From: Fibrobacter sp.
GTDB taxonomy: Bacteria; Fibrobacterota; Fibrobacteria; Fibrobacterales; Fibrobacteraceae
Length of the DNA stretch: 56,079 nt
Assembly (NCBI GenBank): GCA_012523035.1
Contig: JAAYJH010000033.1
Span: 1-56,079 of the forward strand
Reading direction: 5' to 3'
A program made the translations under genes and the position numbers. This document shows positions 8,228 through 16,309 of the stretch, in pieces. The notes beneath the pieces are model-generated. The model saw only the letters and a program-made list of their open reading frames with translations, had not been told where the DNA came from and did not search any database. Position 1 is the stretch's first letter; the number at the start of each line of letters is the position of its first letter.

Positions 8228-8946
8228 TGACTAGAGTTTTAATTTTAATTTTTATAGCCTCTTCTTGTCTTTTTGCTCAAAGAGTGATTTCTGTTGATGA
8301 ATCTGTGTCCAGAAATCAAGACAAAAGCATTGTCACTGCTATAGCTTTTTCTTTACTGATTCCAGGTTCGGGAGAGTATTATTTAGGAGAAACTTCTTTT
8401 TATAAGCCTTTTTTATGGACCGATTTAGCTTTTTGGTTCACCACTGTAGCGACTTATCAAATGGCAGAAAAACAATTGAGCACCGCACATGCTAAAGCAA
8501 CAAAAAATGCAGGACTTTCTATAAAGCGAAAAGATATTGATTTTTTAAATCTTATAGGAGATTACCGAAGTCGAGGTGGCGTAGCAGGGCAAAATTCAAA
8601 CCCAGATATGAACGAAGATTACAACCAAGCGATGCTACGATCTGGTAAGGCCATAGACGAAGAATATCCAAATACAGCAGAATACAGTTGGGATTGGGGC
8701 TCTAGTGATAATCCTCAAACTACAGAGAACATCAAAAGCTATAAAAAGTCTTTGAAAAATTATCGTTTATTTAAGATTGCTTTTCAAGCGTCGGTGGGGG
8801 TACTCATTTTTGATAGAGTGCTTTCTTCTTTAAATGTGCTTCGAATTTACAAAGCAACTTCCTCTAAGTCCATGGCAAGTCAGTGGAAGCTTGTACCTCT
8901 TTGGTCTCCAGACAGCTATGGGACTTGTCTTTTTTACGAATTTTAA
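8227..8946 (+). CDS. DUF5683-like exported protein, paralogue of the preceding gene
   Basis: A 239-residue product with a signal peptide (LILIFIASSCLFA-Q) and the motif LLIPGSGEYYLGE, equivalent to LVLPGAGQIYVG in its upstream neighbour. A hydrophobic helix (WTDLAFWFTTVATY) and a charged central part follow, then a second helix, FQASVGVLIFDRVLSSLNVLR. The end (CLFYEF) matches the FWEF end of the neighbour. I use ATG 8227, which overlaps the upstream stop; a TTG at 8215 is less likely. The stop codon overlaps the stop of the convergent metalloprotease. The pair probably works together at the envelope, but no function can be assigned. Confidence 0.65.
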   Translation: MTRVLILIFIASSCLFAQRVISVDESVSRNQDKSIVTAIAFSLLIPGSGEYYLGETSFYKPFLWTDLAFWFTTVATYQMAEKQLSTAHAKATKNAGLSIKRKDIDFLNLIGDYRSRGGVAGQNSNPDMNEDYNQAMLRSGKAIDEEYPNTAEYSWDWGSSDNPQTTENIKSYKKSLKNYRLFKIAFQASVGVLIFDRVLSSLNVLRIYKATSSKSMASQWKLVPLWSPDSYGTCLFYEF

Positions 8947-10559
8947 TAAACAATTAAAAAAGCTTTTGTCTTTCCTTGATGATCCACTCTATAATAGTAA
9001 AGCGAAGGGCTTAGCTTTTCTTTGACATCCTTTTCGCTAAGGCAGTGGGTGGAATTATTGGTATTTATTTGCCATACAAGTTGTCCTATTCGATTGCGAA
9101 TTTCTATGGTGTTTTGCTTAGAAAGTCCTGTGAAACAAAGCGAGCCACCTTGCCATGGATTAGGGTAAAGTATGGGCTTTTGTTTTGGTTTTTCTTCTAT
9201 GTTTTTGGACTTTTCTTTTAAAAGACTCAAGATATACACCGCAGAGTCGGATTTTTGAATTTGGTTTTTCCAGTCTTGTTGATTTTGAATAGGAGATACT
9301 GTAGTTTTCTTATCTATATTCCAATACACTAAAGAAATTTCTTCATTGGAGGAAAATAAATCGATGCTCGTGCTTTTGGCATCGATAAAATCAAAGCTCA
9401 AAGCTGGTAATGGAGTGTATTTTTTTTGTCGTATGCGAGGAGTCTCCCAATCAGGTGAGTCTAAATAAAGAGCTTTGTAAGAAGAGCTTCTATTTCCAAT
9501 GTGGAACAAAGATAAAGCAAAATCATGGAATAAAGAGTCTGTATTTTGCTTAGAAAAAGCTGTGCTAAAAGCTTCAATAAAGGAGGCTTTTGGATTTTTA
9601 GAATAAAACTCCCATATTTTTTGATCAAAAGCAGCTCCAAAATTTTGAAACAAATAAAGGTAAAGAATACATGCTCCATAATCTTCTCTTAAAGCACTTA
9701 AAGGAGTCCCAATATTTTCTAAAAAATTAGGGATGTAATTCCAATAGTCATCGATGTCAGGAGCATTCACCTCTTCTACACCCACAGCAGAGGCTTCAAG
9801 CCAAAAGGTAGGCGTAGTTAGAATATTCAAGTATCGAAGTTGTGAAGCGTGGTATAGTTCGTGAAAAGCAGTGATTTGAATGCCTTTATTAGGAAATTCA
9901 GCGTATGAATAGGAATCTTTTGTGTTTTTTAATTCTTCACTAGCATAGGGGTATTTGCAATTTTCACCTTCATTGTTTTGAGTATTCAAAAAAGTGTTCG
10001 AAGTGCTTGGGCTATATTTAAAATCATTGTCGATGAGTATTTGACTCGCTTCTGGGTCTAGTGGATCAGAAGGGTAGGTCAATCCAAAACAACCATGACA
10101 GGCCCCTCCCATCAAATACTGAGTGTCTCTGAGCAAATCAATGTCGATCACTTCAATCGCATAAAGGCCTGATTCATTGTTTTGTTGATAATGGTAGGTT
10201 TTTTTTGTGGCTTTGGGGGCTTTGAGCTTTGCAATTTGAGTATTAAAAGTCCAAGCTTTTTCAAAATAATGCACCAGTGTGTCTAAAAAGTGAGTGGTGG
10301 TGGCGTGAGGGCCTTCTAGGGTGTAATAAAAAATAAAATGTGAACTTTTTAAACTTTTGACTTCGTTATAATAAGATTCTGATGGACAATTTGTCAGTGT
10401 TTTGGCAAGTGTTTTAGAGAAGACAGCTTCTTTTAAATGTTTGGAATGTTCTATGAGTTTTTGGGTGCCACAAGTGTAAGACTTTGCCACTAGGGAACTT
10501 TGTAACACCATAAAAATAATAATACTTGCTTTAGAGACTGTAAATAATCGATGGATCAT
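8943..10559 (-). CDS. Secreted zinc metalloprotease-like protein with a type IX-like C-terminal sorting domain
   Basis: A 538-residue exported protein: a signal peptide in the first 25 residues, then a catalytic-type domain with an HELYH zinc motif at His233-Glu234-x-x-His237. A downstream WLEASAVGVEEV segment could supply the third ligand, as in MXAN_6640-like peptidases. Residues from about 460 look like a type A sorting domain of the type IX secretion system: YPNPW, an IEIRNRIGQLVW strand, then SLYYYRV and GKTKAFLIVY at the very end. Such cargo is cut at the domain and placed on the surface or released. It is the last gene of a minus-strand run, 14 bases after ubiD. Substrate unknown; the protease call rests on the motif. 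Confidence 0.75.
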   Translation of the reverse strand: MIHRLFTVSKASIIIFMVLQSSLVAKSYTCGTQKLIEHSKHLKEAVFSKTLAKTLTNCPSESYYNEVKSLKSSHFIFYYTLEGPHATTTHFLDTLVHYFEKAWTFNTQIAKLKAPKATKKTYHYQQNNESGLYAIEVIDIDLLRDTQYLMGGACHGCFGLTYPSDPLDPEASQILIDNDFKYSPSTSNTFLNTQNNEGENCKYPYASEELKNTKDSYSYAEFPNKGIQITAFHELYHASQLRYLNILTTPTFWLEASAVGVEEVNAPDIDDYWNYIPNFLENIGTPLSALREDYGACILYLYLFQNFGAAFDQKIWEFYSKNPKASFIEAFSTAFSKQNTDSLFHDFALSLFHIGNRSSSYKALYLDSPDWETPRIRQKKYTPLPALSFDFIDAKSTSIDLFSSNEEISLVYWNIDKKTTVSPIQNQQDWKNQIQKSDSAVYILSLLKEKSKNIEEKPKQKPILYPNPWQGGSLCFTGLSKQNTIEIRNRIGQLVWQINTNNSTHCLSEKDVKEKLSPSLYYYRVDHQGKTKAFLIVY

Positions 10560-12396: not shown

Positions 12397-12882
12397 TCAA
12401 CCGGCAGACATGCCACCTAAGGAGTCTAGTGCTTGAAAAGACTTTGTGTTTTTTGCTGTTTCGTATTTCAAAAGAGCATCTAGTGTTTGTTGTCGCTCTT
12501 GGAGAGCATAACAAATTTTAGCTTTTTGTATTTCTAAAAGAAAGTGTTCGGACTCTCCTTGAAATGAAAGCTCTTCAATGCAAATTGAAACTCCGTCTTC
12601 GTTTTCAAAGTGGTGCTTTGCATTAAAGCCTCTAAAAGGTCCTTTAAGTAAACGAGTTTGAATCAAAGAACCTTTGACAGATGAAATACTAGCAGACCAA
12701 GAAATTCGATTAAAACCAGAAATTAAGTGATAAAAAACAGTAGAGCCAGCCACCAAATTTTCGGGAGCATGGTAGTGTATTAAGTTTTGAGAAGCCTCTA
12801 AACGAATAGGGGGTGTTCGAAGCAATTGAATGATTGCATCTGTGGGGTGTTCTAACCATGATGTTTGTGTTAAAGTGACCAT
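12397..12882 (-). CDS. SRPBCC (START-like) ligand-binding family protein
   Basis: A 161-residue soluble protein whose middle follows the SRPBCC pattern of the cyclase/dehydrase-like group: AGSTVFYHL, ISWSASISSVKGSLIQTRLLKGPFRGFNAKHHFENEDG. This is the phrase in which such proteins switch between strands around the hydrophobic pocket. These folds bind hydrophobic ligands or act as coenzyme-Q-binding chaperones. Its position immediately before ubiD suggests a partner in handling a quinone precursor, which is inference. The C-terminus ends in a Gly/Ser-rich tail. Confidence 0.65.
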   Translation of the reverse strand: MVTLTQTSWLEHPTDAIIQLLRTPPIRLEASQNLIHYHAPENLVAGSTVFYHLISGFNRISWSASISSVKGSLIQTRLLKGPFRGFNAKHHFENEDGVSICIEELSFQGESEHFLLEIQKAKICYALQERQQTLDALLKYETAKNTKSFQALDSLGGMSAG

Positions 12883-12964: not shown

Positions 12965-13267
12965 TTATATTTCATAATCGACAACACTTCGACTGCTCAC
13001 CACTTCTTTAATAAAATCCCCAACTTTAATGTGTTCAGGGTGTTTTTGATAGTTATTCAAATCCTCTATGCTTTTGAATTGGGAAAAGAGTGCGACATCC
13101 CATGCTGCAGCAGATCTATTAAAATCAATGCCTGCTTCCATTTTTACAATCCCAGGGACTTTATTTATTAAGTCATTGAGCATTTCTACCATTTGGGTGC
13201 CGTTTTCGATAGCATCTTTACCCACAGCTTTTTCTTTGAGTTTCCAAAAAACAATGTGATTAATCAT
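12965..13267 (-). CDS. Dabb (stress-responsive alpha/beta-barrel) domain protein
   Basis: A 100-residue single-domain protein with the standard Dabb opening (MINHIVFWKLKE), a central VPGIVKMEAGIDF strand, then WDVALFSQFKSIEDLNNYQKHPEHIKVGDFIKEV ending in SVVDYE. Dabb proteins form dimeric ferredoxin-like barrels; most bacterial ones have no known substrate. The start overlaps the end of the upstream GT4 gene by eight bases, so it belongs to the same operon. Family identity is secure, role unknown. Confidence 0.88.
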   Translation of the reverse strand: MINHIVFWKLKEKAVGKDAIENGTQMVEMLNDLINKVPGIVKMEAGIDFNRSAAAWDVALFSQFKSIEDLNNYQKHPEHIKVGDFIKEVVSSRSVVDYEI

Positions 13268-14432
13268 ATTTTCCTCGATTAGAATATAAATGGAGTTGAG
13301 TTGTAAAACAATGTTCCCAAGTGAAGCTTTCTGCGTATCGTCTAGCTTCCTTTTTTTCTTCTTTTAAGTCTAGATTACAGATGTGTTCGATTAAATCGGC
13401 CAGAGCTTCTGCAGAATAGTCTTTTAAAATAAAACCTGTTTTTGAATGTGTAGCGTGTTCTTTAGCGGCGCCTGCATTTGCTGCAATGAGGATATTTCCA
13501 GATGCCATGCTTTCTAATATTGAAAGTCCAAAGGTTTCAAATCGTGATAAAGCTATCCCTATATCTGCACTTGCATAATAACGAGCCATTTCTTCTTTTG
13601 AATGTATAAAACCTAAAAAATGCAAATGTTTGTGTTTTTTGATTGCGTTTTGTATTAAAAATTGTCGGGGACCAGCTCCAGAAAAAACAATTGCAGGCAA
13701 TATCACTGATCGTTTACTTAAAATCGAATAGGCATTTAGTAATAAATCTAAGCCTTTTTCTTTACTGAACCGGTGCGGAAAAAAGATGATTTTTCTCTCT
13801 TCTACACCAGATTTTAATTTTTTGACTAAGTCCTCGTCTCGTTTAGATGGATTGAAGCTTTGGATATCGCAACCAAGGGGAATTCTAGCTGAATTTTGAA
13901 AGTATTGCTGGAGTCTTTTTAAAACTTCAAAAGAGGAAGCCTGAATATTATGATAAGCTTTATATTGGTATTTTGCATATGAAAATGCCAGTTCTTTAAG
14001 TAGAGATGCCAAATGTCTTCCCAAAAATGGCCTCAAAGGTCTTTCGATATAAGCCAAAGGGAAATCTGCATGCCAAAAAGCAAAAAGCTTTGCATTTGGA
14101 GAGTGTTTTTTTGCGAGTCTAGCAATAAATTTTGGTAAAAAATAAGGAGAACCGACCTCGATTATATCGGGGTTGTATTTTTTTAGATAAGGGACAACTT
14201 GGGATTTTTTCCAAATAAAACGATAACCTTTGTGGAAAGGAAACTCAAAAGCTTTGACATGCTCAATGATTACAGTTTCAGAAATCACTTCTGTATAAGT
14301 TTGACTGTCGTTCATTATAAAAACCAACTTTTCTAGGTTTCGATTTTTATAGAATTTCAATCGTTCTAAATGATATCGTCGAACGCCACCACCCGATGGA
14401 CTCCAAAAATTATTAAAATCAAGAATCAGCAT
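13260..14432 (-). CDS. Family 4 glycosyltransferase
   Basis: A 390-residue GT-B fold enzyme that should transfer a sugar from a nucleotide-sugar to a lipid or polysaccharide acceptor at the cytoplasmic face. The N-terminal domain has the glycine-rich acceptor loop SPSGGGVRRYH and the DIIEVGSPYFLP segment. The C-terminal donor domain begins near IIFFPHRFSKEKGLDLLLNA and carries the EX7E signature in ETFGLSILESMASG. The sequence resembles alpha-mannosyl or glucosyl GT4 enzymes, but donor and acceptor cannot be stated. Stop and start overlap on both sides (primase-like gene upstream, Dabb downstream), showing a tightly packed operon. Confidence 0.88.
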   Translation of the reverse strand: MLILDFNNFWSPSGGGVRRYHLERLKFYKNRNLEKLVFIMNDSQTYTEVISETVIIEHVKAFEFPFHKGYRFIWKKSQVVPYLKKYNPDIIEVGSPYFLPKFIARLAKKHSPNAKLFAFWHADFPLAYIERPLRPFLGRHLASLLKELAFSYAKYQYKAYHNIQASSFEVLKRLQQYFQNSARIPLGCDIQSFNPSKRDEDLVKKLKSGVEERKIIFFPHRFSKEKGLDLLLNAYSILSKRSVILPAIVFSGAGPRQFLIQNAIKKHKHLHFLGFIHSKEEMARYYASADIGIALSRFETFGLSILESMASGNILIAANAGAAKEHATHSKTGFILKDYSAEALADLIEHICNLDLKEEKKEARRYAESFTWEHCFTTQLHLYSNRGKYD

Positions 14433-16309
14433 TAGGATTCTTTCATTAGAAGTGAAGTAGAGTCTAGTTGGATGGTCCCGTGGTATATTTTTTTGGCCAG
14501 ATTTTTAGAGTCCACAGTTAGAAATAATTCATCTTCTTTGGCTTCTATTCGGTAATTGGCTTCTGAGTCTTTGATATAAGGATTAGATTCTAAAAGACTG
14601 GGTGTGTTTACTTGGTGGTTTCCTCCCAAAAAAACAGGAATATCTAAAGATTTATAAATATCTAACAGAACAGTAGAACGGCGTTCGTGGATGTCAAAAA
14701 TTTCAGACCTATTACTCACTCTTAACTGGTCTATTCCGTCGATAATCAATATTAAATCTGGGCTTTCTTTAAGCATTTCTTTTAAAGTTTGAAGCATCTC
14801 TATATTCTCAAAGCTCAAGTGATCTTCCCAGATTTCTAAGCGGTTTTCTTTCACAAAATGAAGGAGTTTTTTTGTAGCTTCGAGTCGTTTTTGATTGGCT
14901 TCTTCGCATTCGCTTTGTTTTCGAACTTCTAGAATAGACTCTCCAGTGAGTAAAGAAATAATTTGGTCAAATATAATTCGTCTTGGTTTTTTTAAATTAA
15001 TGTATATGACTTTGAGCTCTGTATTAGTGATGACTAAATCCAGAGCAAGATTTATTAAAAATATGGAACTTAAACTCATGGGCTGTGATGAGACAAAAAA
15101 GAGACCAGGTTGAACACCATCTAAAGCCATGCTTAACTTAGAAAATTGGGTCAAGGAGTAGCCTACGGGAGTGTCGGGCGAGCAAAACATAGAAACATCG
15201 AAGTTTTCTTTGATATCTTGCAACATAACAGAACGACGATGTGTGTGGATAGTGTCCTCTTGAGTGTTTTGCAATAAATCTATGAAATAATCTGCCCCTT
15301 TTTCACGAAGGAGTTCATCTAGATTTTGCCCTTCTGGCAATAAGATGGACTTAAATTTTAAATTCAAAGAAGTAGCTAATTTTAGATAGCTTTGAATTAA
15401 AAAAGCCTGTTCTTTTCGATTTTTGGTTCGTCTTAAAACAACAGTGATTGATTCTGCACCGCAAGCTTTTAATTTATAGAGATGGCTTTTATTGAATTCT
15501 TGATAAATTGTAGAAACTACACCCGAAATGCCTGCTAAATCTGCTGTGAGGGTATCAAAAAAACCTTCGACTATAATAGGGTGTTCATTTCTGCTTTGCA
15601 TGTTAAAAGGTATATCTAAGGGACCTGATGCATAAGAAATATAAGGTTCAGATGGGTTTGCCTCTAAACTACGCCCATAAACTGCATGAATGATTCCTTT
15701 CGCGTTTCGTGCAGGAATGGTGACCCTTGCTTCACAAGATGCTTCTAAGTTATCAAGATGACAACTGATTTGATGGCGCTCTATTCCAGAGAGAGCACAG
15801 TAACTCACAAAAGGTTCAAAATCACCAGAATAATAGCCTAAACCATAAAGTTGGGCTTGGGCTATGCTCCAACCTCTGGACTCTAAAAAATCAGATAGGC
15901 TTTTGCTTTTATAAGCAGCCCAATGGCAATAACTCACAAAAAGTTCTAAAACTTTAGACTTCTCACCACCCATTTCTTTGATCCAAGGGTGTTCATTTTG
16001 GAGCTCATCGGGAGCTTTTGTTTCTTGAGCACCAAAAAAATCATAAGCTTGGAGTCGAGCTTCTTTTTCATCTAGCCCATTAAAACGATTCCTCATGACA
16101 AACTCTATTAGATTTCCTTCGCTACCACATTGCAAACAACGATAACGCCAGTAACCCAAGGAATCATAAAAAAACATGGAGTTTTCTTCTGGAGCATGGA
16201 ATGGACAAGCTGCAATTAAATTTCGTCCCCATTGGGTATAAGGTATTCCTAATTGTCTAGGGTGTGTTTTGAGTTTTTTTGACAAAGAAGTCTCGTTTTC
16301 TAATAACAT
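14432..16309 (-). CDS. Degenerate primase-helicase-like fusion (CHC2 zinc finger, TOPRIM, DnaB-like)
   Basis: A 625-residue protein with the layout of a phage T7 gp4/Twinkle-type primase-helicase. Residues 30-75 are a CHC2 zinc ribbon with Cys35, His38, Cys58 and Cys61. Residues 195-235 match the DnaG block before TOPRIM (GIIHAVYGRSLEAN...YISYASGP). TOPRIM follows with Glu248 and Asp252 in VEGFFD, but the DxD metal site (expected near 291-297) reads VLRRTKN. The C-terminal part is DnaB-like: LDGVQPGLFFVSSQP where the P-loop should be, with no GKT/GKS, while the Walker B-like LILIIDGIDQL and DIPVFLGGNHQ sensor are recognisable. It therefore probably binds nucleic acid or a partner without acting as a primase or helicase. 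AGAGGA precedes the ATG. It is the first gene of its operon and lies divergent from ruvC. Confidence 0.78.
   Translation of the reverse strand: MLLENETSLSKKLKTHPRQLGIPYTQWGRNLIAACPFHAPEENSMFFYDSLGYWRYRCLQCGSEGNLIEFVMRNRFNGLDEKEARLQAYDFFGAQETKAPDELQNEHPWIKEMGGEKSKVLELFVSYCHWAAYKSKSLSDFLESRGWSIAQAQLYGLGYYSGDFEPFVSYCALSGIERHQISCHLDNLEASCEARVTIPARNAKGIIHAVYGRSLEANPSEPYISYASGPLDIPFNMQSRNEHPIIVEGFFDTLTADLAGISGVVSTIYQEFNKSHLYKLKACGAESITVVLRRTKNRKEQAFLIQSYLKLATSLNLKFKSILLPEGQNLDELLREKGADYFIDLLQNTQEDTIHTHRRSVMLQDIKENFDVSMFCSPDTPVGYSLTQFSKLSMALDGVQPGLFFVSSQPMSLSSIFLINLALDLVITNTELKVIYINLKKPRRIIFDQIISLLTGESILEVRKQSECEEANQKRLEATKKLLHFVKENRLEIWEDHLSFENIEMLQTLKEMLKESPDLILIIDGIDQLRVSNRSEIFDIHERRSTVLLDIYKSLDIPVFLGGNHQVNTPSLLESNPYIKDSEANYRIEAKEDELFLTVDSKNLAKKIYHGTIQLDSTSLLMKES

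Follow-up and report, generated by a model that had tools for sequence, protein, structure and literature searches.

Genomic Locus and Domain Architecture

The window, a stretch of 56,079 nucleotides from a Fibrobacter sp. contig (JAAYJH010000033.1), carries on its minus strand a full-length open reading frame of 625 amino acids (14432..16309) encoding a DnaG-DnaB pseudo-primase-helicase, referred to here as the pseudo-primase. The start of a GT4 glycosyltransferase gene on the same strand (13260..14432) overlaps its stop. All parts of the pseudo-primase described below have minus-strand coordinates. The N-terminal half begins with a CHC2 zinc ribbon (residues 14-92; 16034..16270), which matches the Zn_ribbon_DnaG family (Pfam PF01807) above the cut-off at E 9e-8, followed by the N-terminal part of a DnaG-type RNA polymerase domain (residues 118-240; 15590..15958), for which the PF08275 match is weak and the assignment comes from hhalign comparison with DnaG, and by a TOPRIM domain (residues 241-350; 15260..15589), placed by alignment to DnaG and by Foldseek with an AlphaFold model of the N half. 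An interdomain helix with the pattern HTHRRS..LQDIKENFD (residues 354-374; 15188..15250), present in both structure models and near-invariant among 41 sequences, leads to a DnaB-type RecA domain (residues 386-604; 14498..15154).

The relationship to DnaG is found along most of the N-terminal half. The NCBIfam dnaG model matches residues 26-357 at E 7e-23, with a score of 81.1 bits that is below the curated cut-off of TIGR01391 (283.6), and the pseudo-primase family aligns with the DnaG of the same genome over columns 22-348 (hhalign probability 98.8%, E 6e-17). For the C-terminal half, DnaB_C of Pfam matches nine of ten family members, although the window protein by itself gives no match, and replicative helicases of the PDB match the family profile at 2e-6. 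No match to the DnaB N-terminal domain (PF00772) was found in the window protein or the other family members examined. The full-length AlphaFold model is confident for the RecA part (pLDDT about 90) and unusable for the N half; with the RecA half as the Foldseek query, the first match was DnaB, and the G40P ATPase domain was matched at a target TM of 0.74. A second model, of residues 1-375, has a mean pLDDT of 82 and solved DnaG cores as its first matches, although the underlying alignment was padded with phage DnaG rows and the model therefore leans towards the DnaG fold. T7 gp4 reached an hhalign probability of 0.3% against the family and was no more than a weak fold match to the N-half model (ranks 23-30). 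The order of zinc ribbon, TOPRIM, and DnaB-like domain proposed in the first-pass annotation is therefore retained, but not its assignment to the gp4/Twinkle type: the profile and alignment results identify the protein as a fusion in which a RecA domain of DnaB type follows a core of DnaG type, made up of the zinc ribbon, polymerase domain, and TOPRIM.

Residues of the Priming and ATPase Sites

The DnaG and DnaB residues considered here are important for catalysis. They were counted in 71 homologues, some of which represent the same genome in two collections, and the DnaG positions are given in E. coli numbering unless the window protein is named. The zinc ligands, described earlier as all kept, are present in the window protein as C35, H38, C58, and C61 and are invariant (71/71), as is R146 (71/71). 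The TOPRIM Glu and first Asp, also reported as kept, correspond to E248 and D252 of the window protein, and E265 is Glu in 61 and Gln in eight of the homologues. D347 likewise persists as Asp (68/71) or Glu (3/71). In contrast to DnaG, D345 is absent from all 71 homologues, Lys is found in none of them at either active-site position K229 or K241, and D309 has become Arg in 68, Asp remaining in one. D311 is Glu or Asp in 67/71 and Thr in the window protein. The columns of the DnaG DxD align with R293-R294-T295 (15425..15433), where most relatives have RR[E/D], which bears out the reported replacement of this motif by basic residues. The window protein contains no D-x-D or GK[ST] anywhere along its length. 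Since the damage to the priming site is family-wide, the death of this site is placed in the common ancestor of the family.

The ATPase site shows a different distribution of losses. The GKT of DnaB aligns with L413-S414-S415 of the window protein, in an altered Walker A with the residues SQPMSLSS (residues 408-415; 15065..15088) that reads SxPFGLK[TS] in relatives. None of the 71 homologues retains the Gly of GK[T/S] (Leu 59, Phe 5, Tyr 3, His 2, and Asp 2), and the Arg preceding the P-loop Pro (R232 of E. coli DnaB) is also lost. The Walker A Lys is kept in 70/71, the sole exception being the Ser of the window protein, and the following Thr/Ser in 70/71. The catalytic acid of the DnaB SLE motif is Glu in 63 and Asp in seven homologues, and Lys only in the window protein (K440; 14990..14992). 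The Walker B-like strand (residues 519-525; 14735..14755), reported earlier as remaining, includes D524, and this Asp is universal (71/71). At the position of the K-x-R arginine finger of DnaB (S601-A605; 14495..14509), Arg is found in 62/71 homologues and Asn in the window protein. Loss of GKT/GKS from the P-loop, as first annotated, is therefore correct for the window protein, but the motif is not simply gone from the family, in which 70 of 71 members have the Lys. The absence of Lys from the P-loop and the replacement of Glu by Lys at residue 440 appear private to the window species, whereas loss of the P-loop Gly is family-wide, so that the ATPase site is altered across the family and predicted to be dead in the window species, where these substitutions almost certainly rule out ATP hydrolysis. 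Judged by these residues, a lack of catalysis can be called firm in two cases only, namely priming and the window species. The region corresponding to the DNA-binding loop of DnaB, before SDLRESG, is shortened, which makes ring-type DNA threading by the pseudo-primase doubtful.

The residues retained by most relatives could mean that the P-[FY]-G-L-K-[TS] loop still binds ATP and that the RecA domain changes shape or hydrolyzes slowly, as a nucleotide-driven switch or weak ATPase to which the window species is the exception. The conserved Walker A Lys and Thr/Ser, SLE acid, Walker B Asp, and finger Arg, together with the well-folded RecA domain in the model, are consistent with this reading, which we consider possible, if doubtful. 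Every homologue has Leu, Phe, Tyr, His, or Asp in place of the Gly that precedes the Lys, the Arg ahead of the P-loop Pro is missing, and the window species keeps a full-length gene without the Lys and the Glu, all of which argue against it.

Comparison with Known Primases and Helicases

The pseudo-primase resembles DnaG (TIGR01391; PF01807, PF08275, and TOPRIM) in having a CHC2 zinc ribbon with all ligands followed by the RNA polymerase domain and TOPRIM in order; it differs in lacking D309, D345, K229, and K241, and in that the RecA domain replaces the DnaB-binding C-terminal domain. With DnaB (PF03796) it shares the RecA-fold C domain and the Walker B Asp, and its relatives have the P-loop Lys and the SLE acid as well and, for the most part, the finger Arg. 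Unlike DnaB, it has neither the N-terminal domain nor the P-loop Gly, and the loop before SDLRESG is shortened. As in phage T7 gp4 and mitochondrial Twinkle, a primase half is followed by a helicase half in one chain, and as in Twinkle the primase half is dead. However, Twinkle lost three of its four zinc ligands and kept its helicase, whereas the pseudo-primase keeps the ligands and has damage in both catalytic sites.

Twinkle retains its dead primase half (PMC7231222), and archaeal DnaG binds RNA in the exosome through its N-terminal domain and TOPRIM (PMC4227792). Both precedents show that domains derived from a primase may persist in the absence of priming or alongside it. The archaeal exosome protein is a DnaG/TOPRIM protein used outside priming in a binding role, and it differs from the pseudo-primase in having an RNA-binding N-terminal domain instead of the DnaG zinc ribbon and in lacking a RecA domain. 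A protein of RNA metabolism, in which TOPRIM and the zinc ribbon bind RNA with no part in replication, would be compatible with this precedent and with retention in 61/71 homologues of the TOPRIM Glu, which is relevant to RNA binding in archaeal DnaG. Such a role is nevertheless unlikely: the presence of a DnaB-type domain favors the primosome, the N-terminal domain of archaeal DnaG is a different one, and no RNA-processing genes were found near the pseudo-primase loci examined.

Distribution and Selection

A profile search of 168 Fibrobacterota genomes identified a full-length pseudo-primase, with an uninterrupted frame, in 97 of the 111 Fibrobacteraceae genomes. The 14 genomes without the gene comprise 12 of genus g5, the single g8 genome (73%-complete), and one g3 genome (71%-complete). 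No pseudo-primase was detected by this search in the 57 Fibrobacterota genomes outside Fibrobacteraceae, which gave only partial matches of DnaG or DnaB type. A scan of all bacterial genomes with exact peptide patterns, whose reach is limited to close relatives, returned named homologues from Fibrobacter and Fibrobacteraceae records. In trees of both halves, the family is a single clade on a very long branch, a position that would fit an origin from the genome's own DnaG/DnaB or from another source. No publications on the family were found in the open-licence literature.

Whole-gene dN/dS is 0.013-0.056 in unsaturated close pairs and low in every domain. Within the core clade, conservation of the pseudo-primase is on a par with that of DnaB, at 57-62% to the copies in genomes G002 and G001 compared with 58-60% for DnaB of the same genomes. 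Invariant columns amount to 16-22% of the DnaG-like half versus 8% of the RecA half. The first-pass annotation had read the selective catalytic loss within an intact frame as repurposing, and had proposed a homologue alignment with a selection analysis as the check; the alignment and dN/dS values agree with repurposing, since the non-catalytic residues of the DxD columns are conserved in relatives and every domain is under purifying selection. None of the 71 was a close homologue in which DxD and GKT are intact, the result named there as refuting. Losses shared across the family, together with strong purifying selection, indicate that the pseudo-primase has a retained function without priming. 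In the window lineage, whose genus is represented by one genome, the pseudo-primase evolves clearly faster than among the relatives: this lineage forms a long branch in the RecA-half tree and is alone in its changes at 34 columns that are otherwise invariant (0.054 per column), compared with 0-0.023 per column for seven neighbor genes by the same measure. Owing to this fast evolution, the role of the window copy itself could be weakening.

Primase-helicase fusions are typical of phages, and a primase-helicase left behind by a phage or plasmid and now decaying would account for such a fusion and for the accelerated window branch. This explanation is very unlikely and is disfavored by the selection results, with whole-gene dN/dS of at most about 0.06 in close pairs and intact frames in 97 genomes. 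In addition, GC and GC3 of the gene match those of its neighbors, and no full-length relatives were found among IMG/VR, the INPHARED phages, or the PLSDB plasmids; with no full-length match in these three mobile-element collections, phage origin was rejected.

Genome Context and Coexisting Genes

The same genome encodes an intact DnaG (VEGYFD and FDSD), an intact DnaB (GRPGMGKT, SLEM, and KHRNG) with its PF00772 N-terminal domain, and RadA. A third DnaG-like protein of 353 amino acids (L004:1495-2556, on genome contig C112) has a TOPRIM with its DQD intact and lacks a helicase-binding part; it is kept across Fibrobacteraceae, including g5, which is without the pseudo-primase, and occurs in one genome of another family.

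The GT4 glycosyltransferase gene lies 3' of the pseudo-primase in every genus inspected, with its start overlapping or nearly meeting the stop. The ruvC gene is divergent and adjacent in the window, in 45/45 Fibrobacter-type loci examined, and in G016. Two deep members, G010 and G005, have the pseudo-primase elsewhere, and their ruvC adjoins other genes. Adjacency to ruvC is therefore not ancestral, and the GT4 gene is the constant neighbor. The previously suggested repair factor next to ruvC, that is, a DNA-repair protein functionally tied to it, draws on this divergent arrangement, but with the gene away from ruvC in the two deep members and the GT4 gene as the constant partner it is highly improbable. 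Nothing found pointed to a link with the ribosome, as the suggested ribosome-binding decoy would have. That the protein is an ordinary primase-helicase, misaligned or mis-assembled, is hardly credible and, for the family-wide changes, is refuted by loss of the same residues in 70 homologues from many assemblies and by the lack of any other GK[ST] or DxD in the protein.

Genus g5 (L139, L140, and L141) has the GT4 gene, but the place of the pseudo-primase directly upstream of it is taken by an RNase HI that carries a viroplasmin-like domain. Displacement by this RNase H was rejected, as genomes with the pseudo-primase carry an RNase HI with the viroplasmin-like domain elsewhere. Replacement of a helicase loader was rejected as well, DciA being found in genomes with and without the pseudo-primase, and so was a defense role, the PADLOC matches being only to the DnaG-like part of reverse-transcriptase systems. 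Elsewhere in the window, 8943-10559 encodes a putative metalloprotease domain of the MXAN_6640 type together with a sorting tail for type IX secretion. Between a gene for a Dabb protein and a UbiD-like gene, 12397-12882 encodes a 161-amino-acid protein with no Pfam or NCBIfam match, which is 35-52% conserved among the Fibrobacter loci found to contain it.

Proposed Role and Implications

Dead enzymes often prove to be regulators or scaffolds. With moderate confidence, the pseudo-primase is interpreted as a lineage-specific pseudoenzyme in which a fused DnaG core and DnaB motor domain act by binding, as a non-catalytic scaffold for nucleic acid or the primosome. A new role in the handling of DNA, other than as an enzyme, is probable, because a protein with lost catalytic residues is kept under strong selection beside an intact primase and helicase. 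The invariant zinc ligands and the better-conserved DnaG-like half point to nucleic-acid binding, with single-stranded DNA (or RNA) expected to be held at the zinc ribbon and the DnaG-like face. The DnaB-type domain suggests that the RecA part may self-assemble or dock onto the DnaB-DnaG primosome. Once bound, and with no catalysis of its own, the pseudo-primase could tune priming, the activity of the helicase, or the stability of the fork. Nucleotide binding as a switch may persist in the RecA domain of most relatives and would have been given up in the window lineage. Against this interpretation as a scaffold, the conserved neighbor is a glycosyltransferase gene and not a replication gene. 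Only tentatively, the protein could be an extra non-catalytic primosome component, on or in the active DnaB-DnaG complex, with control in trans over priming or the progress of the fork.

If this interpretation is true, a replisome-level pseudoenzyme of this kind would be undescribed in bacteria, as far as the open-licence literature shows. A primase-helicase that is damaged at both sites and yet persists in almost an entire bacterial family would be an unusual replisome-derived pseudoenzyme, and the family offers a natural series of step-wise loss, with the priming site predicted to be dead in all members, the ATPase altered in most, and fully dead in the window species. Fibrobacter succinogenes, a major cellulose degrader of the rumen, belongs to Fibrobacteraceae, so the role of this candidate replication or nucleic-acid factor would be open to genetic and pull-down tests.
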